DNA from: Sinohyriopsis cumingii
Taxonomy: Eukaryota; Mollusca; Bivalvia; Unionida; Unionidae
Assembly (NCBI GenBank): GCA_028554795.2
Contig: CM068827.1
Location: 75,775,244-75,839,243 of the forward strand
DNA: 64,000 nt
Direction of reading: 5' to 3'
In this document: one piece after another, positions 1 through 64,000 of the stretch
How positions within the stretch are numbered: position 1 is the first letter of the stretch
Layout of the letters: every line of letters starts with the position of its first letter
Notes under the pieces: model-generated
The model's database searches: none
The model's input: only the letters and a program-made list of their open reading frames with translations
What the model was told of the DNA's origin: nothing
Position numbers and translations under genes: made by a program

Positions 1-330
1 CCGACCAATCGCAGCGGGCGTCACATACTGCTTGGGTTGACACATGGGGCAGTTCAATCCAACTTGACTAACATGAGTGCGTGTTTCAATTCCCACTCAT
101 GTAAGAGCCTTACACTTAGGTTGTTAAGGACTAAATAGTCCTACAACCTAACGGCTAAATTAAATAGTACTCTTTGAGTACATAAATGCCTGGGGGAGGT
201 GGCTCCAATTCCCTCCCCCAGGAGTAATTAATAAGCACATTAAGTGCACTAACCAGCGGTACATGTCCCTAGTGGACGAACACCACTATAATCCAATTAA
301 GTCAAGTCAAGTCTGTCTGACCATCCCTTG
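1..330 (+). promoter_or_regulatory. Structured leader, copy A, of a stem-loop-terminated gene cassette
   Basis: This stretch folds into successive hairpins. ACATGAGTG (71-79) pairs with CACTCATGT (94-102). TTAGGTTGT (116-124) plus AGGACT (127-132) pair with AGTCCT (137-142) plus ACAACCTAA (143-151). GTACTC (167-172) pairs with GAGTAC (176-181), CCTGGGGGAGG (189-199) with CCTCCCCCAGG (212-222), GCAC (235-238) with GTGC (244-247), and GTCC (265-268) with GGAC (274-277). The same order of hairpins recurs at 5004-5170, 9518-9710 and 10591-10791 with different bases but kept pairing. It lies directly upstream of a short reading frame and a histone-type stem-loop. I infer a transcribed 5' leader. 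The upstream promoter is outside the window. An alternative is the 5' UTR of a retroelement. Confidence 0.6.
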
Positions 331-345
331 TTGACTCGTACTCCT

Positions 346-722
346 ATGAAGATGTGTTCAAGACTAACCAAGCTGAACGAAGCTAACGTGAATTTACATC
401 GTGTCAGGCAAAGCCTGATACCTAAGCCTGAAGAGATAGAGAATGTCAGAATGTTAAAAGTGACCGAAGACCTGATAGAAGAGTTCTTCAGAGAGTAAAT
501 CAAGAAGGAAAAGGAAAAACGGATGGAGAAGTACAGACTTTAGATGCAGAGATAGCAGTAGCAACAGCAACTGCAGCAGCAGGAGGAGGAACCAGAGGTT
601 TTTCGACTACCGAGTGGACATGAAAGAGTTCCTCTTCTCTTTCCGAAGAAGCAGGCTCTATCCTGTCTGAAAGCCTGCTGACAGACGAGGACGCAATATT
701 AGACGATAAAAGATTGCCGTAA
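346..722 (+). pseudogene. Decayed Lys/Glu/Gln-rich small protein gene of cassette A
   Basis: An ATG at 346 opens a 50-codon frame to TAA at 496, beginning MKMCSRLTKLNEANV and containing KVTEDLIEEFF. The same frame continues after the stop with IKKEKEKRMEK and a QQQ/EEE run, interrupted by further stops. A second frame then reads into SESLLTDEDAILDD and ends at TAA 720-722, just 18 nt before a histone-type stem-loop. The pattern is a helical N-terminus followed by a charged tail, broken by stops and at least one frameshift. The motif K-V-T-E-D-L-I resembles LITNELI encoded in another frame upstream of the 9849 gene. No known family is recognised. It sits directly behind structured leader A. 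Confidence 0.4.
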
Positions 723-740
723 CTCCCCTTTCACAAACAA

Positions 741-757
741 CGCCCCTTTTCGGGGCG
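741..757 (+). terminator. Histone-type 3' stem-loop, variant (cassette A)
   Basis: CGCCCC-TTTTC-GGGGCG forms a perfect 6-bp stem with a five-base T-rich loop. The classical histone element has a four-base loop, so this is a variant. It is preceded by CACAAACAA and lies 18 nt after a stop codon. An ATGAAAATAAAT purine stretch follows 15-25 nt downstream, where the U7-pairing box would be. It matches by position the stronger elements at 11468, 62437 and 63227. Confidence 0.5.
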
Positions 758-958
758 ACTCCAATTCTCATGAAAATAAATACTAATTCAATTGCCAATT
801 GCATGTTAGTAAGTTAAAAAATAGAAGTGTGTCTATAAGCTCTTCTTTTCTTTATATTATCTCCAAAATAAATAAAAGTGTGACTATAAGCACTTCTTTT
901 CCCTAACTTGACAAAATAGTCTGTATGTGTTTGTCTTTGTAGCGCCTGTAGTTAAATA
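758..958 (+). repeat. AT-rich spacer with a duplicated AAGTGTG...CTATAAGC box
   Basis: A segment of about 35 bp is repeated twice (roughly 824-860 and 876-902): AAGTGTGTCTATAAGCTCTT, then AAGTGTGACTATAAGCACTT. Each copy contains TATAAG and can fold as AAGTG...CACTT in the second copy. It could be a promoter of a lost downstream cassette; the following Gypsy fragment interrupts it. Confidence 0.35.
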
Positions 959-1751
959 ATGAGTATTTCGTTTAGGTCTGCGCGTTCCATGCTTCTTACA
1001 GCTAGGCTGACCAAATATAGTATAGGGTATTTTAACCTAGACTATTTGGGACATCTTGTATGTGGACTAGGCCAGTTGAAACCTCACCCAGACAAAATAG
1101 GTGAAATCAGAGATGCACCTAGGTCAGAAAGGAAAAAACAAGTAAGATCTTTCCTAGGTTTGATTGGGTTTTACAGGAAAATTGTCACCAATTTTGCGGA
1201 TATTGATAGCCCATTAACAGATCTGAGTAGGAAAGGGCAACCTAATAAAATTCCTTCGGGTGTGTGCCAGGAAAAGGCGTTTAACTCTTTAAAACAGAAA
1301 CTGGTAAGTGCACCAGTCTCAAAGTTGCCAGAATTCAACAAAACTTTTGTTCTGAGGACTGATGCGTCCGATACCGATTTTGGAGCTGTTTTGCTAAGAA
1401 GCAAGAGGGGATGAAATTGTCCATTGCTTATGCAAGTAGCAAATTGCACTCTGTGGAGCAAAACTACTCCGCGATTGAGAAGAAGTGCCTAGCTTTAGTA
1501 TGGGGGATAGCAAATCCCATACGTACATTTTCGGCTTGGAGTTTACCTTACAAACGAATAGCAAATTCCATACGTACATTTTCGAAAGGGAGTTTACCTT
1601 ACAAACGGACCATCAGCCGCTCCTATACTTGAACAAGGCAAAGGTCGCCAACGCAAGATTGATGCGTTGGGTGTTGTCCTTGCAACCGTTTAGTTTCCGA
1701 ATCGAGGCGATTCGAGGGTCAGACAATGTGGGTGCTGATTTTATTAAGTAG
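959..1751 (+). pseudogene. Ty3/Gypsy retrotransposon pol fragment (end of RT and RNase H)
   Basis: Translated fragments carry the junction between reverse transcriptase and RNase H typical of Ty3/Gypsy pol: LGQLKPHPDKIGEI, then KKQVRSFLGLIGFYRK, then FVLRTDASDTDFGAVL (the RNase H catalytic TDAS), then YASSKLHSVEQNYSAIEK, then EFTLQTDHQPLLYLNKAK and the final SDNVGAD. The frame shifts near 1410 and at an internal duplication near 1505-1606, and a stop near 1748 replaces the usual ADxLSR ending. There is no integrase after it and no palm domain before it, so it is a truncated dead copy. The family assignment is secure from these motifs; the exact lineage is not. Confidence 0.85.
1505..1606 (+). 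repeat. Tandem duplication of about 51 bp inside the Gypsy RNase H region
   Basis: The segment ATAGCAAATCCCATACGTAC...GTTTACCTTACAAACGA occurs twice back to back with small differences. It duplicates part of the LQT-coding segment and moves the reading frame, which explains the overlapping short frames here. Confidence 0.7.
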
Positions 1752-3644: not shown

Positions 3645-4178
3645 TATGCAACAGCAGAGGGAGCAGTCAGTGCAGACCCACTAGAACAAGAAACCATAAG
3701 CGAAACAGAGGACACAGTTGCAGCTGACCTGGACATGTCATCGACTTCCAAAGACAGTCCAGAAGAATCTTACATCGCAAACGATGAGAGCGAAGAGGAA
3801 GAAATAGATATAGAAGCAGAGGAAGAAGAAGAGGTAACTGACCACCTAATCAATAAGTACAAAGAAACGGGCCTAGCACCAGCGATGGAAGATGTAAAGA
3901 AAGAAGGACATTTCACTAACGCTGTGAAATACATTGCCTATAAATCTTTGGAAACCTAAAAGCCGAATCCTGCCCAATGGTATTACGAGGTCCGGATACT
4001 CACGCAGTACTACTACCACGCCTATTCCAATTATCCTCTCTGGAAACTAGTAGAAGCTGCAGAATTCGTGTCAACCCTGCACCAATACGCCTTGTCGCAA
4101 ATTAAAGGACAAGATAGACGAAATGCGGAAAAGGTCAAGATTGCAGAGGACCACAAAAATAGCCCTTCTAAGAGCTAG
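3645..4178 (+). pseudogene. Acidic cassette protein with one in-frame stop
   Basis: An open frame runs from 3645; its first ATG is at 3735 (MSSTSKDSPEESYIAND). A Glu-rich block (ESEEEEIDIEAEEEEEV) is followed by a folded-looking segment (HLINKYKETGLAP, NAVKYIAYKSLE). TAA at 3957 interrupts it, but the same frame continues for 72 more codons (PAQWYYEVRILTQYYYHAY, then LWKLVEAAEFVSTLHQYAL) to TAG at 4176. Amino-acid composition is coherent on both sides of the stop, so this is either a recently inactivated gene or a read-through. No family is recognised. The spacer after it resembles the one after the 9849 gene, which places it in the cassette series. Confidence 0.5.
4161..4176 (+). terminator. 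Possible degenerate histone-type stem-loop overlapping the stop codon
   Basis: AGCCCT-TCTA-AGAGCT pairs five of six positions around a four-base loop and sits at the expected place at the end of the acidic frame. The stem has a mismatch and the purine box downstream is poor, so this may be chance. Confidence 0.25.
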
Positions 4179-4699: not shown

Positions 4700-5230
4700 T
4701 AGTCTGGCTCCCCAGCATCATCCACCCCGCACAAGGCGGTAGAACTTATGATTAGAGTATGAACCCCAAATATCAACTGACTAAATAAATTCCCCTAAAA
4801 TAGACTAAGAAGATCCATTATGTCACCTCTATCCTACAAGCAGCACAAATAATGATTCTCCAAATTGCAAATATGGCTAAGCGACACCATTTCACATTCG
4901 GAAAATGGGGAACGAAATGAAACGATTCCGGATGTAAGGCGCATCCCTTCCACTCAGTCCGACATACCCTTGCCAATGCCAGACATGAACTAGATAAGTT
5001 AGTGTGAGTGGGCCATTCCCACTCACAATGAGTCCCGTGAGATATCAATGTCTCGAAAATCGGACTGATGAAATAACACTTTTTAAGGGCACTAATGCGT
5101 TGGGGGAAGTGGCACCATTCCTTCCTCTTCGAAACAATCGATCAGCCCTAATTGGGGCATTAACCAGTCGTACATGCTGGTAAGGGCGCAAACAACTTAA
5201 ATTTAAATGACCGACCGACCTAGTCTGCCT
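4700..5230 (+). promoter_or_regulatory. Structured leader, copy B
   Basis: Close relative of 9244-9735 over about 490 bp. Hairpins: GTGAGTGGG (5004-5012) with CCCACTCAC (5018-5026); AGTCC (5031-5035) and GAGA (5039-5042) with TCTC (5051-5054) and GGACT (5062-5066); GGGGAAG with CTTCCTC around the loop TGGCACCATTC; GCCC (5145-5148) with GGGC (5155-5158). The conserved unpaired phrase TAATGCGTTGGGG follows the third hairpin. The leader ends in repeated GACC units and CTAGTCTG. The next coding sequence downstream is a decayed non-LTR ORF1 rather than a Lys/Glu-rich gene. Confidence 0.6.
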
Positions 5231-5799
5231 CTCATTCGATTCTCATTCATTCCATTCCATTCTCATACCTGGACTGGACGCCGAGAAGAGCAGCCGTATT
5301 AGGTCTTGCCACTTGTAAGAAGTGTCGGATCCACAAGTCAAAAGATTTTGCTGAAAGTGTCTGGTCATCAAGCTACATTAACCAACTAATCAACCATCAG
5401 TCAACAACAACAGCATCTGTATTCGCAGCCAGCCCATCAGTATCGACCTGCAGACGTGGCTCAGCAGCCCACAAAGCAGATCGACCTGCAGATTTACACC
5501 AGCAGCCCGCCTATCACCACGCCAAGCAATTTCGACCTGCAGAAGAGGCATAGCTGCCCACACACCAGCCCGCCAATCAGTTTTGACCTGCAGAAGAGGC
5601 ATTGATGCCCGCCCAGCGGATATCCAAAAATACGCTAACACCGCCAGTTTTTCAAATCTGTTTAGGGAGGAAATTAAAAGGTAAATTTTATACATTTGGC
5701 ATTAAACCTTCAGGTACCTATCTACTTGTGCTGTTTGGAATATTATTCTTTCTATTTCATTCTTCTCCTTTTGCTCAATAACTAACATTCTTTTATCCC
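5231..5799 (+). repeat. Interval with four CGACCTGCAG-containing repeats
   Basis: TCGACCTGCAG or TTGACCTGCAG occurs at about 5443, 5481, 5532 and 5583, with AGCAGCCC or AGAAGAGGCAT attached, giving imperfect repeats of about 38-51 bp. No long frame is credible; the 101-codon antisense frame here is low-complexity. Confidence 0.5.
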
Positions 5800-8998: not shown

Positions 8999-9735
8999 TA
9001 TAAATTTAGATATTATAAAATGGATTAAAGCTCAGCCATCAGGACCTGTTGCACAATGCGACAACGACTTGACCAATAAGTTGTTAAAATTTAATGTAAG
9101 GACCTAAAATTAGATCTATAATGTGGTTAAAAGACCAAAGCCATCAGGACCAGCTACATTTTGTGGCAACTAAAATTATATAACTAAGAAGCATGACCCC
9201 AAAATTTAAAATTATTAGGTGGCTAAAACCCAGCGATCGGGCCCCCAGCACAAGGCGGAAAAACTTATGACCAGAGTATAGACCCAAAAATATTAACTGA
9301 CTAAATAAATCCCCCTAAAATAGACTTGGAAGATCCATTATGTCACCTCTATCCTACAAACAGCACAAATAATGATTTTCCAAATAATAAATACGGCAAG
9401 ACGACACCATTTAACATTCGGAAAATGGGGAACAAAAATAAACAATCCAGGATGTAAGGCGTATCCCTCCCACTCAGTCCGATGTCCCCTTGCCACTGCC
9501 TGAGATGTATTATATAAGTGAGTGCATGTGGGCCATACCCACTCACCACGATTCCCGTGAGAAATCAATGTCTCGAAAATCGTACTAATCAAATAGCACT
9601 TTTTAAATGCTCTAATGCGTTGGGGGACGCGGCACCATACCGTCCCCCCCCCCCGAAAAAATAAATCAGCCCCATATGGATCATTAATCAGTCGTGCATG
9701 TCCGTATGGGCGAATACGACTATAATTGAAACGAC
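8999..9735 (+). promoter_or_regulatory. Structured leader, copy C, with extra tandem modules
   Basis: CCTATAAATTTAG at 8999 could be a TATA box. Three modules of about 90 nt follow (starting near 8998, 9100 and 9192), each beginning GACC-TAAAATTTA and containing CAGCCATCAGGACC or a variant and a small hairpin (GTTGC/GCGAC; GCTAC/GTGGC). From 9244 the sequence parallels leader B. Hairpins: GTGAGTG (9518-9524) with CACTCAC (9540-9546); ACGATT and GAGA with TCTC and AATCGT; GGGGGACG with CGTCCCCC around CGGCACCATAC; GTCC with GGGC. A small gene and a stem-loop follow. Confidence 0.6.
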
Positions 9736-9848
9736 CTAGTCTGGCTCATTACACCAAGAAAACTACCTTTCCTACACAAACTTAATGATGAATTTGATCT
9801 AACTCCAACGCCACAAGTGATATTGATCACCAACGAACTGATTAAGGC

Positions 9849-10004
9849 ATGGCGATCTCAAAATTCAAAGTAACACCTGAATTTGAACACCTGGCCATCG
9901 GGGATATCATCTGCCCGGATTACATCGAGACAGAAGAAGAAGCCAGATGGAAGTTTACACCACCCAAACATCTGAAGGGACTACTATTTCCAGATGAGGA
10001 TTAA
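9849..10004 (+). CDS. 51-residue cassette C protein, acidic, unknown function
   Basis: ATG at 9849 opens a 51-codon frame (MAISKFKVTPEFEHLAIGD..., ETEEEARWKFTPP, ending HLKGLLFPDED) with TAA at 10002. The stop is only 4 nt before a histone-type stem-loop, which makes this short frame believable. An in-phase-broken upstream stretch in another frame (KLNDEFDLTPTPQVILITNE) may be an older N-terminus, suggesting that the gene once started nearer the leader and suffered a frameshift. The C-terminal LLFP recurs in the cassette A remnant (VPLLFPKK). No known domain. Confidence 0.45.
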   Translation: MAISKFKVTPEFEHLAIGDIICPDYIETEEEARWKFTPPKHLKGLLFPDED

Positions 10005-10008
10005 CCTC

Positions 10009-10024
10009 AGTCCTTTTTAGGGCT
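10009..10024 (+). terminator. Histone-type 3' stem-loop (cassette C)
   Basis: AGTCCT-TTTT-AGGGCT makes a six-pair stem (one T-G wobble) with a four-base loop. Flanks are AACCTC before and ACCTAAT after, close to the histone ACCCA flank. ATCAAGAGATTTC follows within 20-30 nt as a possible U7 box. It begins 4 nt after the TAA of the 51-codon frame. Confidence 0.6.
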
Positions 10025-10468
10025 ACCTAATCATTGCCTCTTATCAAGAGATTTCAATTTGGTTTGAAATCTCGACTCGATAATACTATTGTAAACCTAA
10101 TACGATCCTTTGGCCACATGTTCAAAATTAAAACCATAATTCCTAATTAGACACTCAAAAATTTGTAATTGTCGCTCAGGCCTAAATTTCTTTTGATTTA
10201 AATAAATTAATGCACACTATGTGATTTTGGAATTAAACTAAGATAGGAAAATTTAAAACTTAAATCCGAGACTCTAATTACGATTGTGGCTAACACATAA
10301 TTGGTAATAGGGAATACCCAATATATGATCAACTCGGTTGAATTCGGCATTAATAATTTTGGTGTTTCAGGTACGTTCCGGCTACGTTTGGTCCCTACTT
10401 CCGGGTTCCTCTCCTCTCCGCCTGCTCGGACATTAAAAGACTAGTGTGTGGGTCGATTCCAACTCGTC
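10025..10468 (+). other. Inter-cassette spacer C-D
   Basis: AT-rich, non-coding, with a small palindrome (GAGATTTCAA...TTGAAATCTC, about 10050-10075). Part of it (10240-10315) resembles the spacer after the acidic gene. It ends in a more GC-rich promoter-like segment (10380-10430). Confidence 0.4.
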
Positions 10469-10559: not shown

Positions 10560-10850
10560 AGTAATACAGACACAGACATTTATTTACCTCGAGTGCTTGT
10601 TGGGTCCAATCCCACTCAAAAAAACCTTTCATACAGGTCGAAAGAGAGTTACTGTCCTACGACCTGAAGGCTTATCAATTAGCACTTTACGAGTGCATTA
10701 ATGCGTTGGGGACGTGGCACCATTTCTTCCTCCTCGAAAAATCAATCAGCCCCATTTGGGGCATTAACCAGTCGTGCATGGCTGTATCAGCGAATACGAC
10801 TCTAATTAAAACGACCGACCGACCGACTAGTCTGGCTACCCAGCGTTGAC
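10560..10850 (+). promoter_or_regulatory. Structured leader, copy D
   Basis: Hairpins in the same order as in copies A-C: GAGTG (10591-10595) with CACTC (10613-10617); AGGTCG with CGACCT; GCACT (10682-10686) with AGTGC (10692-10696); GGGGA with TTCC around TGGCACCAT; GCCCC (10749-10753) with GGGGC (10758-10762); GCTG (10781-10784) with CAGC (10788-10791). The last two use bases different from copy A (GCAC/GTGC and GTCC/GGAC) yet still pair. It ends in four GACC units and CTAGTCTGGCT. Confidence 0.6.
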
Positions 10851-10908
10851 TAGTCAACACGTTTGGAAAACGAATTTGTTTAATAACTTGAAAGACAGTT
10901 GGTACTGG

Positions 10909-11453
10909 ATGGTGGTTGCCGCCTATGTAGTGGAAATGATTGAAAATGGATGGAGATATCCAGTTACTAAAGTCTTTGTGACAAGACAAGTCTAAAAGTA
11001 GCCAGGGATCTAGTGAAAGGAATGACAGAGGAGAAAGTGGAGAAATTAAGAGGCTTCATTCATCCACAGTATGTGAGAGTGTGAACATTGAAGCAGGCCA
11101 TTGATGATGTGATGAAAGTGAAGATCCTTTTACAAGACATACTGAATTTCACATAGTGGTCTTTCATGGAGTGGGGGCATAATACTTTTACAAAAAGGAG
11201 AAGAAATGATGAGAAAAGTGCTGGAAGAAGAGGTGAAAAAGATTAAAGATAAATGTGCTAAAGAGAGATTGGAGAAAAAAATAGAAAGAATAAAGAAGAC
11301 TTTGAGAAAATGAATTAAAACTGGATGAAGGTGCAGGAAAGATTTAGATTGAAGGGACATCCTGACTGGACACCAAACGATGAAAAGAAGAAAAAGAAGA
11401 AGAAAGGAATCATTGAGAAAGCGAGGAAATGGTTGAAGAACTGGAGAAAATAG
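10909..11453 (+). pseudogene. Decayed Lys/Glu-rich helical protein gene of cassette D
   Basis: From ATG 10909 a coherent but broken protein can be followed: VVAAYVVEMIENGWRYPVTK, then VARDLVKGMTEEKVEKLRG, then LKQAIDDVMKVKILLQDIL, then a strongly charged helix (EEEVKKIKDKCAKERLEKK), then FRLKGHPDWTPND and a Lys run, ending KARKWLKNWRK with TAG at 11451. At least three stops or frameshifts interrupt it. The final stop lies 14 nt before a canonical histone-type stem-loop. The architecture (helical N-terminus, charged coiled-coil-like tail) matches the intact genes at 62506 and 63270. It is not a histone. Confidence 0.5.
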
Positions 11454-11467
11454 AAGAAAAAACCAAA

Positions 11468-11483
11468 GGCCCTTTCCAGGGCC
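11468..11483 (+). terminator. Histone-type 3' stem-loop (cassette D)
   Basis: GGCCCT-TTCC-AGGGCC, a perfect six-pair stem with a four-base loop. It has the exact histone 5' flank CCAAA and ACTCATATG after it. CTCGAAAAGATTTG (11495-11508) is a purine box 13 nt downstream, nearly the same as CTCGAAAAGAGAT beside the - strand element at 62437. Confidence 0.75.
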
Positions 11484-11489
11484 ACTCAT

Positions 11490-11860
11490 ATGCCTCGAAA
11501 AGATTTGCTTTCTTGCCAAACAAAATTGTAGTCGGTTGTATAATTGTTTGTGTGATAGATATATGTTGTATGTGTTATATATGTCTATGTCCCGCCAAGT
11601 GTTCATGGTTTTTTACCCGCTCTATGGTCCGATTGAGGTCAGACCCTTGCTACATTGTTACCAATGTCCCTTACCGTGACGTCATCTCATCTGTACAATT
11701 TATGTTATCCCTATATAAGAAACCCACTTTTCTTTGACGCTATACAGACCCAATATTTCCCATGTTAAATTTTCATTATACAGTCCCACGACATTCCCAT
11801 GTTAAACTTCCCTTTAGGCTATACAGCCCCACTATACTACTACTGTGGTGGATGATGTGA
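11490..11860 (+). promoter_or_regulatory. Spacer, TATA box (11712-11719) and leader start of a truncated cassette E
   Basis: CCCTATATAAGAAACCC gives a TATA box at 11712. About 40 nt on, two units contain TTCCCATGTTAAATTT and TTCCCATGTTAAACTT plus CTATACAG and GTCCCAC. The same CCCATGTTAAATT motif is tandemly repeated in the - strand leader region at 61740-62372. No gene follows; sequence similarity ends near 11860. Confidence 0.5.
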
Positions 11861-15340: not shown

Positions 15341-15925
15341 CAAGAACTACACTCAGCAGTTTGACTATTGTAATATAACATGCGAAAATGCATCTGATAT
15401 TAAAATCTAAACAAAATTATTTTCTTGCAAAAGCGGTCCTGTAAAATTAAATACTAAGTTGGCAAACTGGAAAGATTATAAGGGGAATGTATACATTAAA
15501 CATCATACCATGTCCAGAAGGACTTCACCTTTTAAAACCAAACTGCGGCACACAGTTAGTGCTAAATCTGTCCCAGTTTGCTTGAGAAATACATGTCAAA
15601 GTTTAGAATACAGAACACTCCAAACCATATGTATGTATGTATGTCTACATGTATGTACGTATTTGCGAGATGGGTACTGATCGATTGCACTCTGTATTTT
15701 CTATATAAATATCTTAGAGGACCTCGAAGTAGATTAGCTGTATTATGTAGATGATTGAGTTACCATCATGGAATAAAATCTGTATTTTTACTACTACTGC
15801 TACTATTGCGTACAAAAGAAAATCAAGCAAACAATAACCAAAATGTGTGCACAAGTTATGTGAATGGATGCCACGAATAGGAAGCGAGAATAGAAAACTA
15901 TGTTCTGTAATGAAATAAAACTTAC

Positions 15926-16251
15926 ATTGTTTTGACATTTTTGGTTTGCTCTTGCGCGTCCAAGACAGGTAAATTGGTCAGGGTATCCTTTTGATGACAG
16001 GTGATGACAGTAAATGACGAGCGTTTGGTGGTTGAGGGTTCACACTCACACGTCGCGCCACAAATGTTGCGCGGTTTAGAATGTGATGTTTTATTTTCCG
16101 GTCTATTACTAATATTCTCTGGCATGGTTTCATTATTCTTTCTTCCCAAGCCATTGACAGTATTTGTAAAATCTCTATAGACAACGGCAGAATATATAAT
16201 CGAGACCATTAAATATTCTATTATTAGCAAAATGAAGTACTTTGAGCGCAT
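15926..16251 (-). CDS. First coding exon of a secreted or membrane LRR protein (signal peptide plus LRR N-terminal cap), paralogue 1
   Basis: ATG at 16251 starts a hydrophobic signal segment (KYFILLIIEYLMVSIIYSAV). An Asn/Lys-rich linker follows, then a cysteine cluster CGATCECEPS and FTVITCHQKDTLTNLPVLD, the CxCx...VxCx...L..IP pattern of an LRR N-terminal cap. The exon ends in AAT followed by GTAAGT, a strong donor, after 108 codons plus two bases (phase 2, the usual phase in LRR-coding genes). The exon at 33836-34164 matches it: signal peptide, same cysteine spacing, DTLT, the ending QxKNVxxM, and the same donor and phase. Downstream LRR exons were not located, so this may be an orphan exon or have distant partners. 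Confidence 0.6.
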
Positions 16252-30989: not shown

Positions 30990-33835
30990 CTAATTTTTGT
31001 CTAGACAAACTAACCACTACTTCGGTAATGATGCTTGAAATTAAAATGTATTATGGTCCATTCAGAGTGACAATATTTATACATCTATGTTTTATTGGCA
31101 ATGTATAGCAGTACCCGAACCTGAGGAAAGATTTTAGATCCATAACTTTGCAACCAAGTCTGTTTTGCATCCATATAACATTTCAAACAAATTCAACCAT
31201 GTGATGATTTAATCAGTGTAGTACTTGCACTTTGTACCAAAGAAATCTTTCTTCCATTTGAAGCTTCCCAAACTTAAAAAGGTAAATTTAGATCTTCCAG
31301 CATTAAAGTCTTCACACATGTATCACTGAATGATATATTTACCATTTTATCTACACAAAAGTATTACCTAGCAATGAATCTAACAAAAATGTAGTCATAT
31401 CGGATTTGCCATGTAGGCTGTCCAAGACATAACTTTAAGAACTATGTTCCATGTATATTTCCTTACATTTTCTAAATCTTTGATGAAATCCACCGCATTT
31501 GTTACTGTGTTATATTAGGACATAAATTTATAACATATAAATGGTCAGCATAGATTTTATTGCATTTTCCGTAAATGTATACATTCGAATGAAATTACTG
31601 GAATCCTAGAAACATTAGTGCATGCGAACGTTGCGTTTCCAGTCAAACCACACTCTTGATTGCTTTGTCATCATACGCAAAAGTCTAAAGAAACCTTGTT
31701 GCTGATTGTCTGAATGTCTTAGGTACCACAATAACAAACGATTGTCTTAGGTACCATGATAACATACGATTCTCTTCGGTACCACAATAACTGACGATTC
31801 TCTTAATTAATGTAGTGACACCTGCAAAGTGTCGAAGTATAAGGTTAATTTAAAGTCATTATATCTAAGATTGATATTCTGATTTTATTTATACATTATG
31901 TACTGTAAAATGTATATACTTCCTAAAGTGTGAGTTTTAGATGATACAGTTGTTTTCTGTGTTTGCAATGACCGTGACCTCACGAAAGCAGCTGGTGTTT
32001 CTGAAGGGTTCTTAAACAATCTAATACTGCATTCCCCTAAGGAAACTATTAACCACACATTCAAAATATCAATTTCATACTTTTATGCTGTTTTTATTAT
32101 CTTACTTAATGTTGGCTTAATTCTTCAGTATACAATTTTATGCCGTATGTCGGTACTTCATGCTAAATACTATAAAACAGAGCCTACAAACGAAATGCAC
32201 ATAATTATTCATATCTCCAATATAGGTAAGAATATTTTAAAAAATCTTCATTGAAAACAAATTTGACATGAGTTAAACCTTTTAAACTAACATATGCTGC
32301 AATAAAGACGCATTAATACGCTTCAGCGTTACGCTTCTTTTGAAAACACAATTCCCCATAATGGAACAAATAATAAATTCTAGTAATTTTATAAGACAGA
32401 TGGTATATTCAGTTATCACATACCGCATGCTTATTACGAATAGGAACACAAAATGTATCATGAAAGATACTCTTAACTCTAGAATATAAAAACGTGCCTT
32501 TTTAACTTAATTTAATAAAATAATACAATAATGAAACTTAAGCATCAAAATGAATCAAACGTCTTCTCTACCTTATAAAGATCAACGACATTCAGTTGAT
32601 GACATAACAAGTTGACTACGCGGCTGTGTCAGCGCAAAACTATATTGGAATTTTGTTAAATGTTTCTTTCGTGTATGATCTCTTGACATCTCCGCGATCT
32701 CAATCAAGCAATCTTAAATTGCATGGTTTTCATCACCAAAGGAGTATACCTTTTCCATCGTTGTAGTAGAATTTGAAAACAAAAATCTTTTACAATGTCT
32801 GAAATGTTTGACCACTGAGTTATACTTTTGCATGATTACTCGCACTTTTACTTGGCCCATCGGCGGAACATTTCTCTTCTTCAGTCCATATGATGTATGA
32901 TGGAATCGCCCATACCCTAAAATGGAGCGCAGAAAATAGCAAACCCATTGGAATCGCGTTCTGCAAACAGTCCATCCTAGCCTTTAAATCAAGAAGAATC
33001 CCAATGAGCTTGTGTCCCTGCGTAAGTAACAGTCAATTTAAAAGTACCCCAAATTACATTTTCCTGCCATGAATTCGCTTTTTCAACATCATGGTTTTAA
33101 CTATCGTATTTCTGCAGCAAACTATTCAAATATAAAAGTGCATTTATAAAAAAATTTAAAAGCGTTTTCCAAGCTTTACTTATTACCAATGCAACACACA
33201 AAATAAAAGTTGCAAGGACAAAATGTTGTATTGACGTAATGGCACACAAATAATAAATAACGATAGCCAACCACGAGGAACCGTGTGCAGAATAGTTTGA
33301 AACTGTACAGATCGGTTGTAATATAGTAGATGAAGTACTAGTGAACGGATCACTACGAAATGAAAACGAAACGGAAGAAATAATTAAGCAGAAGATATTT
33401 TAAACAGATAGCTTGTTCCATCGGTTGCAAATGATGACACAGATATTATTTCTCTAGCATACTGTTGTCGCTAGACCGCATATAGTTATCAACCGCCATC
33501 TTTGAAAAAGTACGAAAACAGTCGTATTTTTTAAACATTATATATAGAGCCTGCGTGTAACTTTCAACCAATTAATCAGATCAGTTTATAAGCTAATTTA
33601 GTTTTACTTAAAGCGTTAGAACAGGGGGAAATAATGTAAATATATCCTTGTTTCAAAATATTTTTCATTAAAGATATATATTGCAAAACTCGTATTATAC
33701 ACATTTTGCATTTATTTTTGCCCGTAGCTTCGTCGTTTGAAATTGTTGCTATCAGATCTAGGAGTGACATTGGTTTCATCACGTACTATAAGATTATCCC
33801 CGCATTGATATGACATAATTTTTTTAAAAACTTAC
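30990..33835. other. No recognisable gene over about 2.8 kb
   Basis: AT-rich sequence with a threefold GGTACCA-(T/C)-AATAAC-type repeat near 31720-31790. No exon that I can support. Confidence 0.35.
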
Positions 33836-34164
33836 ATTTCCGTGACATTCTTCATTTGATCTGGAGTTTCCATGACAGGAATATCTGTTAATGTATCCTT
33901 CCGCTTGCATGTTATGATCACCGATGACGAATATTTGCTGGATGAATGTTCGCACGTGCAAAGGGTGTCACAAACTTTGCCAGGGTTAGATGATGAGACA
34001 TACGCTCCTAGAATTTCAACACTGTACAAGGTACTATGGACCGGCATGGTACTAACATAGGTGTCTGAAAAGGTACCAGGAAGAATGCCATCATTTGCTT
34101 CTGTACACAATAGAAAGAGGACCAAAAATCCTGTTGCATTAATAACGAAATATTCTGGGTACAT
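33836..34164 (-). CDS. First coding exon of a secreted or membrane LRR protein, paralogue 2
   Basis: ATG at 34164 starts MYPEYFVINATGFLVLFLLC, a signal peptide likely cleaved near ATGFLVLFLLCTEA/ND. A Ser/Thr-rich linker is followed by the LRR N-terminal cap pattern CDTLCTCEHSSSK, VIITCKRKDTLTDIPVME and QMKNVTEM. It ends in GAAAT followed by GTAAGT after 109 codons plus two bases (phase 2), exactly as in the exon at 15926-16251. The two differ widely in the linker but keep cap, phase and donor, so they are diverged paralogues rather than a recent duplication. Following exons on the - strand (below 33.8 kb) were not found with confidence. Confidence 0.65.
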
Positions 34165-40545: not shown

Positions 40546-43975
<3,430 letters not shown>

Positions 43976-62436: not shown

Positions 62437-62452
62437 GGCCCTGAAAAGGGCC
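62437..62452 (-). terminator. Histone-type 3' stem-loop of the 62506-62856 gene
   Basis: On the - strand GGCCCT-TTTC-AGGGCC is the canonical histone mRNA stem-loop (6-bp stem, loop TTTC), with 5' flank ACCCAAA and 3' flank CCCATAT. CTCGAAAAGAGATAG follows 9 nt downstream, a purine box of the kind bound by U7 snRNA. It lies about 53 nt after the stop codon, a normal histone spacing. Confidence 0.85.
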
Positions 62453-62505
62453 TTTGGGTTTTCTTCTGCTTCTAATTTCTTCTTTTCCTCCACCAAGTTC
62501 TTATT

Positions 62506-62856
62506 TTATCTCCTACACTCTTCTTCTCTTTCTTTTTTTTTCTTCTCCTCCTCTTCTTTCTTCTCTTCCTCCTCTTCTTTCTTCTTCTTTTCATTTTCTT
62601 CTTCTTTTTCAATTTTTTCGTTCCAATTGCGTATTCTTATTCTTTCCTCTTCATCCTCCTTCTCCTCCTTGATCTCTTTCATGACACCACTAATCTTGTC
62701 CTTTGCTTTCCTTAAGTTATTAATTTCCATCTTCACACGATGGGGACTATAGGAATAATGGTCTTCAACCAGTCTTAATAGCATCTGTTCCATTATTCCT
62801 AAGTTGTCTAAAACGTCTTGCAAGGTTTGTAATTTGTCCATTTGGTTTGACGCCAT
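62506..62856 (-). CDS. Non-histone Glu/Lys-rich coiled-coil protein with histone-type mRNA end, 116 residues
   Basis: ATG at 62856 lies about 48 nt downstream of a TATAAGAA box and has no intron. Residues 1-65 (MASNQMDKLQTLQDVLD..., MEQMLLRLVEDHYSY, VKMEINNLRKAKDKI) look helical; residues 66-116 are almost pure Glu/Lys/Arg and end EREEECRR. No known domain; not a histone, HMG or protamine, although the cassette (TATA, no intron, short 3' UTR, stem-loop, purine box, no AATAAA seen) is that of a replication-dependent histone gene. I infer S-phase or germline/embryo expression of a non-polyadenylated mRNA. The low-complexity tail makes homology searching hard; a possible artefact is that the Glu/Lys tail is just a purine tract, but TATA and stem-loop positions argue for a gene. 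Confidence 0.65.
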   Translation of the reverse strand: MASNQMDKLQTLQDVLDNLGIMEQMLLRLVEDHYSYSPHRVKMEINNLRKAKDKISGVMKEIKEEKEDEEERIRIRNWNEKIEKEEENEKKKKEEEEEKKEEEEKKKKEREEECRR

Positions 62857-62903
62857 CTTCTTTGTATTCTTTGCAGAATGGTTTGAACAACTAATACTGT
62901 GGG

Positions 62904-63015
62904 TTCTTATACGAAAAGCGCGAACGTGAAGGAAAACATCCCCCTAAAACATAAAATGGATCTTACCTAGATGATGACCAAACATCGCGCGGACGTGAAG
63001 GAAAACATCCCCCTA
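62904..63015 (-). promoter_or_regulatory. Promoter of the 62506-62856 gene: TATA box and duplicated upstream element
   Basis: TATAAGAA (62904-62911 on the - strand) is preceded by an element, here read on the + strand: GCGCGAACGTGAAGGAAAAC followed by ATCCCCCT (62919-62946). The same element recurs at 62987-63014. On the transcribed strand this reads TTCACGTTCGCGC, resembling an E2F-type TTCGCGC site. The same arrangement is found upstream of the next gene (63648 and 63720). Confidence 0.65.
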
Positions 63016-63226
63016 CTTTCTCATTTCATATAATATAACCCTAACTATACTCTCCACATTTGCTAAAAAACCCATAATCGACTATTCACACAAACATACC
63101 TGAGCTCTTACAAACACACAAACACATACACTTTCACTATTAATAAAGAGTTAGTGTTTATTTTCACACTACTCTACCTACTCACATTGGCAAATTAATA
63201 GTTATTTCTTTTCTAGACTATTGGGT
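63016..63226 (-). other. Inter-cassette spacer, - strand
   Basis: AT-rich. 63140-63220 (AGAGTTAGTGTTTATTTTCA, CACTACTCTACCTAC, CACATTGGCAAAT) is nearly the same as 63935-64000, so spacer and terminator region repeat as a unit of roughly 780 bp. Confidence 0.6.
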
Positions 63227-63242
63227 AGCCCTGAAAAGGGCT
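63227..63242 (-). terminator. Histone-type 3' stem-loop of the 63270-63578 gene
   Basis: On the - strand AGCCCT-TTTC-AGGGCT, a perfect six-pair stem and TTTC loop, with the exact histone 3' flank ACCCA. TCTAGAAAAGAAATAAC follows 10 nt on as a purine box. The stop codon is 27 nt upstream. Confidence 0.85.
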
Positions 63243-63269
63243 GTTTGTTTAAACTCCAGATGCACCTAT

Positions 63270-63578
63270 CTAATGGTTGCACCTTCCTGGCCTGGCGCCG
63301 CACACGCATCTTCTTCCCCAGTCTTCTTTCACCTTTCTTCTGGGGAGCGCAGAGGGAGGATGATTCGCTTCAGCACCCCAATCCTCTGTTTCAGGAATAT
63401 TAAACGACATCATCTCTTCTCTTTTCTTTTCCACCTCTTCCCTCTGTCTTCTCTCCTCTTCTTCCTTCTTTATTCTTGCTTCTTCTACGATAGCCTCCGC
63501 TGATAGTTCGTTTACTATGCGCCTGGCATATTCCAGGTGCATCTGTAGTTCTAACAGTTTCACTATTCTGCTATTCAT
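63270..63578 (-). CDS. Non-histone coiled-coil protein with histone-type mRNA end, 102 residues
   Basis: The frame is open upstream to 63599 but its first ATG is at 63578, about 57 nt after the TATA box, so I start there (MNSRIVKLLELQMHLEYARR). Residues about 1-30 are helical, residues about 31-60 a charged coiled coil (EEARIKKEEEERRQREE, VEKKREEMM), followed by a distinct tail FNIPETEDWGAEANHPP, KVKEDWGRRCVCGARPG and CNH. The tail repeats E-D-W-G twice and has a small Cys cluster. It shares promoter, intron-less layout, terminator and charged middle with the gene at 62506 but little residue identity: a diverged tandem paralogue or functional neighbour. No known family. Confidence 0.65.
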   Translation of the reverse strand: MNSRIVKLLELQMHLEYARRIVNELSAEAIVEEARIKKEEEERRQREEVEKKREEMMSFNIPETEDWGAEANHPPSALPRRKVKEDWGRRCVCGARPGRCNH

Positions 63579-63634
63579 TCTTCTGGCTGTGTTGATCAAT
63601 CAACAAGGGTAGCTGGACTGCCGAACGAGTTTCA

Positions 63635-63740
63635 ATTTATACTGAAAGCGCGGACGTGAAGGAAAACATCCCCCTAAAAACATAAAATTCATCTTACCTA
63701 GATCATTAACCAGAACAACGCGCGGACCTAAAAGAAACAC
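63635..63740 (-). promoter_or_regulatory. Promoter of the 63270-63578 gene: TATA box and duplicated upstream element
   Basis: TATAAAT (63635-63641 on the - strand) with the upstream element, read on +, GCGCGGACGTGAAGGAAAAC followed by ATCCCCCT (63648-63675) and a weaker second copy at 63720-63740. Between them lies AAAATTCATCTTACCTAGAT, matching AAAATGGATCTTACCTAGAT of the neighbouring promoter. Confidence 0.65.
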
Positions 63741-64000
63741 TCACTCACTTTTTTATGCTACCCATCACTTCAATCGACTATCCACATACGCAAGGCAATC
63801 CAATCTAACCCCAAATATACACCTCAAACAGCCCAAAAAACCAAACATCATTTTAATCTACTATCCACACCAACCTATTTTATCACTTACAAACACAAAC
63901 ACACAAACTCATACCCTCACATTTTTTAAGAAAGAGTTAGTGTTTATTTTCACACTACTCTACCTACACACATTGGCAAATCTATCGTTATTTCTTTTCT
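63741..64000 (-). other. Spacer and beginning of the terminator region of a third - strand cassette
   Basis: 63935-64000 copies 63140-63214 closely and ends in GTTATTTCTTTTCT, which in the neighbouring cassette lies within the purine box just 3' of the stem-loop. The stem-loop of a third gene is expected within about 30 bases past the window end. Confidence 0.6.

Follow-up and report, generated by a model that had tools for sequence, protein, structure and literature searches.

In the stretch of DNA analysed here (64 kb, hereafter the window), two short intronless genes, A and B, encode proteins that are not histones and are followed by a hairpin and a purine box of the histone type. The explanation that we favour, with a probability of about 0.6, is that they represent a multicopy, intronless, non-histone family of freshwater mussels that is built and processed like the replication-dependent histone genes. 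Observed directly are the anatomy of the two genes, the rarity of their 3′ signal by chance and the fact that the protein of gene A and, in gene B, the first 81 residues are conserved. Three further members, C, D and E, lie in the same window and look decayed.

Structure of genes A and B

The original prediction had described two intronless frames on the minus strand, each preceded by a TATA box and followed by a hairpin of the histone type and a purine box, and re-reading the coordinates confirmed this description (Table 1). The promoter box GGGGGATGTTTTCCTTCACGTCCGCGC is common to both genes, the nearer copy in gene B differing from it by one letter. The 41-nt hairpin piece of gene A folds at -9.2 kcal/mol and that of gene B at -10.9 kcal/mol. 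At the five ends of A to E such folds give a 6-bp stem, with a loop of 5 nt in E and of 4 nt in the other four. What had been claimed of flanks and spacing holds only in part: ACCCA follows the hairpin of gene A, but gene B, whose hairpin is preceded by CCCAAA, has CCCA instead, and the spacers to the purine boxes are 13 nt (A) and 12 nt (B) rather than about 10 nt. The corresponding cleavage-type motif is ACTCA in C and ACCTA in D. The order of the parts is alike at A, B, C and D and looser at E.

Table 1. Positions in the window of genes A and B, of the further members C to E, and of their parts
Feature	Positions	Strand	Remarks
Gene A	63270-63578	-	102 aa; ATG 63578; TAG ending at 63270; intronless
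Gene A promoter box GGGGGATGTTTTCCTTCACGTCCGCGC	63648-63674	-	directly 5′ of TATA box; from repeat families D5/D7
Gene A TATA box TATAAA	63641-63636	-	57 nt between TATA box and ATG
Gene A candidate initiator GGCAGTCC	63622-63615	-	by eye
Gene A histone-type hairpin AGCCCTTTTCAGGGCT	63242-63227	-	27 nt after stop
Gene A ACCCA after hairpin	63226-63222	-	
Gene A purine box GAAAAGA	63213-63207	-	candidate histone downstream element; 13 nt past hairpin
Second copy of gene A post-hairpin flank	63926-64000	-	93% identical to 63140-63214
Gene B	62506-62856	-	116 aa; ATG 62856; TAA ending at 62506; intronless
Gene B promoter box GGGGGATGTTTTCCTTCACGTTCGCGC	62918-62944	-	nearer copy
Gene B second promoter-box copy	62987-63013	-	farther upstream
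Gene B TATA box TATAAG	62911-62906	-	49 nt between TATA box and ATG
Gene B histone-type hairpin GGCCCTTTTCAGGGCC	62452-62437	-	53 nt after stop
Gene B purine box GAAAAGA	62424-62418	-	inside CTCGAAAAGAGATAG; 12 nt past hairpin
Member C	10671-11503	+	second-type promoter; apparently decayed frame related to B
Member C hairpin GGCCCTTTCCAGGGCC	11468-11483	+	RF00032 29.3 bits, E 2.7e-4 in 62 kb
Member C purine box GAAAAGA	11497-11503	+	
Member D	9585-10050	+	second-type promoter; TATAAT 9721-9726
Member D 51-aa frame	9849-10004	+	ends 4 nt before hairpin
Member D hairpin AGTCCTTTTTAGGGCT	10009-10024	+	
Member D purine-type box TCAAGAG	10044-10050	+	
Member E	181-799	+	second-type promoter; ATG 346 opens a broken frame, beginning MKMCSRLTKLNEANVNLHR
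Member E hairpin CGCCCCTTTTCGGGGCG	741-757	+	5-nt loop; missed by strict scan

Strength of the 3′ signal relative to chance

Against the Rfam model RF00032 (Histone3; cmscan on 2 kb), the hairpin of gene A scores 32.0 bits (E 8.5e-7) and that of gene B 31.8 bits (E 9.6e-7). These scores and that of member C are significant yet under the curated gathering score of 34, which places A, B and C outside RF00032 membership at that cut-off. Because A and B score below it, a default scan of the window lists nothing. RF00032 gave no match to member D or member E at E values up to 0.5. The pattern RGCCCTTTTCAGGGCY, allowing up to 3 mismatches, has seven matches in the window against 0.53 expected, a count reached by none of 100 shuffles. 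A strict scan, whose stem and purine-box patterns were composed after the sites had been seen and are biased in their favour, returned four hairpins, those of A, B, C (11468) and D (10009), each with a purine-type box at most 32 nt away; 60 random Markov sequences contained on average 0.07 strict hairpins (largest number 1), none of them with a purine box. The RF00032 scores and the comparison with random sequences put the signal far above chance. Covariation of the hairpin over the five ends (A to E) is not significant, the score being reached by 39 of 500 shuffles and the two-sided pair count by 356 of 500.

Comparison with histone genes

Genes A and B resemble the metazoan replication-dependent histone genes in being intronless, in the TATA box, in the 6-bp hairpin with a 4-nt loop soon after the stop codon, in the CAAA-like 5′ flank, in the ACCCA-type cleavage site (A only), in the purine-rich downstream element 12-13 nt on and in the presence of neighbouring copies. 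In histone 3′-end processing, the purine box pairs with U7 snRNA. The two genes differ from histone genes in their products, neither of which is a core or linker histone: the protein of gene A is near neutral (pI 6.85) and that of gene B acidic (pI 5.25). The hairpin of gene A differs further in having an AATAAA downstream. As had been predicted, no Pfam histone match was found in A or B, nor in 16 relatives of gene A, and no histone occurs among the 15 open reading frames of at least 100 aa in the window, all of which were scanned with Pfam.

In another bivalve, Lucina pectinata, the available part of one report describes a stem-loop near the stop codon of histone mRNAs, and purine-rich elements in four histone genes only, at varying positions (PMC6210712). 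The genes described in that part encode H1, H2A, H2B, H3 and H4 (PMC6210712), whereas A and B are non-histone genes. Hairpins of the histone type are bound by SLBP, according to an excerpt of a second source (PMC5706932), and, in an excerpt of a third, cleavage at ACCCA takes place 5 nt downstream of the hairpin, a minor site lying 7 nt downstream (PMC6303110). The same excerpt calls histone mRNA the only known animal protein-coding mRNA that ends in a stem-loop (PMC6303110), and the portion of a further paper that we consulted reports no SLBP targets outside the histones (PMC2781718). Among the matches listed in a literature search of partial coverage, with few subscription papers, none reported histone-type 3′ ends outside the histone genes. 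The 3′ signal itself is already known; non-histone users of it would be new.

Conservation of the encoded proteins

The protein of gene A consists of a Glu/Arg/Lys-rich N-terminal part, which is predicted to be helical, and a conserved C-terminal module, W..RRCVCGARPGRCxH. We defined its family by an N-terminal ELQMHLE.ARR stretch together with the C-terminal RRCVCGARPGRCxH, and gene A carries both. A search with the single sequence found nine relatives among 20 candidates, with E values down to 9.2e-27. A profile made from nine sequences, eight of them relatives, found at least 16 relatives among 8000 scored candidates; the same eight recur among these, and seven are new. The pI of the relatives ranges from 5.4 to 10.2. 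Fifteen of the 16 listed relatives come from environmental or other JGI/ENA sources, one of them also from a third source; the remaining one is P0018, annotated as a partial protein in the freshwater mussel Sinanodonta woodiana (Unionidae); the longest scaffold recorded for it is 128 Mb. P0012, from ENA, is identical to P0018 at 45 of 47 positions, so at least P0012 looks like mussel DNA.

In the alignment of this family (A3, 17 rows), 16 rows extend as far as the core, and the exact CVCGARPGRC is present in 14 of them, namely gene A and 13 of 15 relatives. The exceptions, CVCGARPGKC in P0017 and FVCRARPGRC in P0014, are each a single-family variant. Gene A lacks two residues (N-W) that are found in all 15 other rows reaching that part. 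Judged by this conservation, gene A belongs to a real conserved protein family. Its C-x-C-x6-C-x-H spacing could, as a guess from the residues, bind zinc as a C/H zinc knuckle. NCBIfam at E 0.01 gave no match for 17 members of the gene A family, Pfam gave only sub-threshold matches for A, B and the 16 relatives (for example Med16_C, SPT2_N, Caldesmon and TAF4), and the solved structures gave one weak match (E 0.38). No protein relative was found in a bacterial and archaeal genome collection, and three pattern matches in bacterial records compare with about two expected by chance on a hand estimate.

For gene B, the search of 8000 scored candidates gave two matches. One of them, P0010, is an S. 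woodiana protein of 82 aa on a 140-Mb scaffold and is identical to the first 81 residues of gene B at 67 positions (83%). The other, P0011 (E 0.48), was treated as a chance match. The Glu/Lys-rich tail and the stop position of gene B are not common to P0010. Since P0010 ends at 82 aa and the reading frame of gene B continues beyond its stop and through the hairpin, the tail of gene B may be recent or eroding. The description of both genes as intact is well supported for A and only partly for B. The S. woodiana relatives of A and B sit on different scaffolds, and they suggest that the window itself comes from a freshwater mussel or a close relation of one. The possibility that A and B form one protein family was considered and set aside, as a profile comparison aligns a single column, and the two were kept apart.

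Further members in the window and alternative explanations

The existence of a family, also foreseen by the original prediction, is upheld by the relatives of A and B and by the further members in the window. At its 3′ end, member C shows 71% DNA identity to gene B across 129 aligned positions. The 3′ flank of member E is 76% identical to that of gene A over 66 positions, and the start of its frame weakly resembles relatives of gene A (tblastn E 2.4, P0008). A second type of promoter is common to C, D and E and to the stretch 5030-5231. From their sequences, all three members look decayed, and the 51-aa frame of D is probably a remnant. Because they nevertheless retain hairpins, retention of the hairpin is no proof of its present use, and in C, D and E the hairpins may persist through shared descent. 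The 3′ flank of gene A is repeated at the very end of the window, which indicates that the array continues beyond it, and one more stem-loop gene would be expected just past that point.

The persistence of hairpins in decayed copies is one of two findings that fit an alternative in which A and B are expressed but polyadenylated, the hairpin and purine box having been inherited from an ancestral histone-type locus and serving rarely, or else alongside a poly(A) site farther downstream, as happens in some histone genes. The other is that an AATAAA starts 64 nt past the hairpin of A and 17 nt past that of E. However, neither AATAAA nor ATTAAA occurs in the 56 nt that follow the hairpin of B, the 77 nt that follow that of C or the 56 nt that follow that of D, and at A and B the hairpin, cleavage site and purine box have been retained together despite differing coding parts. 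We regard this alternative as unlikely.

A second alternative is that the array is mostly repeat, its promoter and 3′ modules having been spread by segmental duplication or by a mobile element, so that B to E would be relics and only A-type genes would matter, if any. The stretch 4711-5231 (+), which carries the second-type promoter, is a direct duplication of 9229-9747 (+) with 81% identity, and neither mismatch-tolerant nor strict scans found a stem-loop of this kind after the 4711-5231 copy before 10009. That three of the five members look decayed would also fit. The clear conservation of the gene A protein and the 83%-identical relative of gene B over 81 residues argue against it, and we consider it quite improbable. 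Compact small genes, S-phase-type signals and the origin of most listed relatives in short environmental contigs might suggest a virus, or an insertion derived from one, that exploits the histone 3′-end pathway of its host. This is very improbable and was rejected: pattern-based scans of viral contigs (gene A only) confirmed no relative, the exact promoter box is absent from these contigs, as is the exact hairpin with purine box, the relatives in mussels lie on scaffolds of 128 and 140 Mb, and the ENA relative P0012 nearly equals a mussel protein.

Two other stretches of the window have some features of such genes. A piece at 960-986 (+) is 89% identical over 27 nt to the upstream promoter box of gene A. 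Directly after it comes part of a retroelement (959-1414) that carries an RNase H-like domain, as if a further family member had been interrupted there by the retroelement. At 3645-4178 (+), two frames in the same register are separated by one stop codon, the first acidic and Glu/Asp-rich and the second of 72 codons; the stretch ends at 4161 in the hairpin-like AGCCCTTCTAAGAGCT, beside which no purine box was seen, and may be another broken gene.

Proposed expression of the genes

In the favoured reading, that of a histone-like family of non-histone genes, RNA polymerase II would start at the TATA box with its shared upstream box and transcribe the short frame. The transcript would bear the hairpin of 6 bp with a 4-nt loop, then the CA cleavage site and then the purine box. 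The hairpin would be recognised by SLBP and the purine box by pairing with U7 snRNP, and cutting the transcript would yield an mRNA without poly(A) whose 3′ end is the hairpin. From the sequence, the mRNAs of A and B are probably ended by SLBP and U7 snRNP in this way. An mRNA of this kind would, we propose, be made mainly in S phase or be held in germ cells and early embryos. We infer for A and B both histone-type processing and expression linked to replication. Their proteins, with a predicted helix and a possible C/H zinc knuckle, might act at replicating DNA.

We lean slightly towards a broader proposal, that freshwater mussels have recruited the SLBP/U7 pathway for non-histone families, giving a replication-coupled regulon outside the histones that comprises two or more types of protein (A and B) and of promoter, the two promoter types both being present in this window. 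Should a conserved family of non-histone genes carry the full signal, the SLBP/U7 pathway would not be exclusive to histones, and one could test directly why a gene requires replication-coupled mRNA.

Other open frames in the window

Two similar short frames on the minus strand, at 15922-16251 and 33832-34164, have a signal-like start and share C.C.....KDTLT..PV (by eye); neither has a Pfam match. On the plus strand, an open frame of 1061 aa at 40555-43740 belongs to a LINE-type element and has endonuclease and reverse transcriptase domains.
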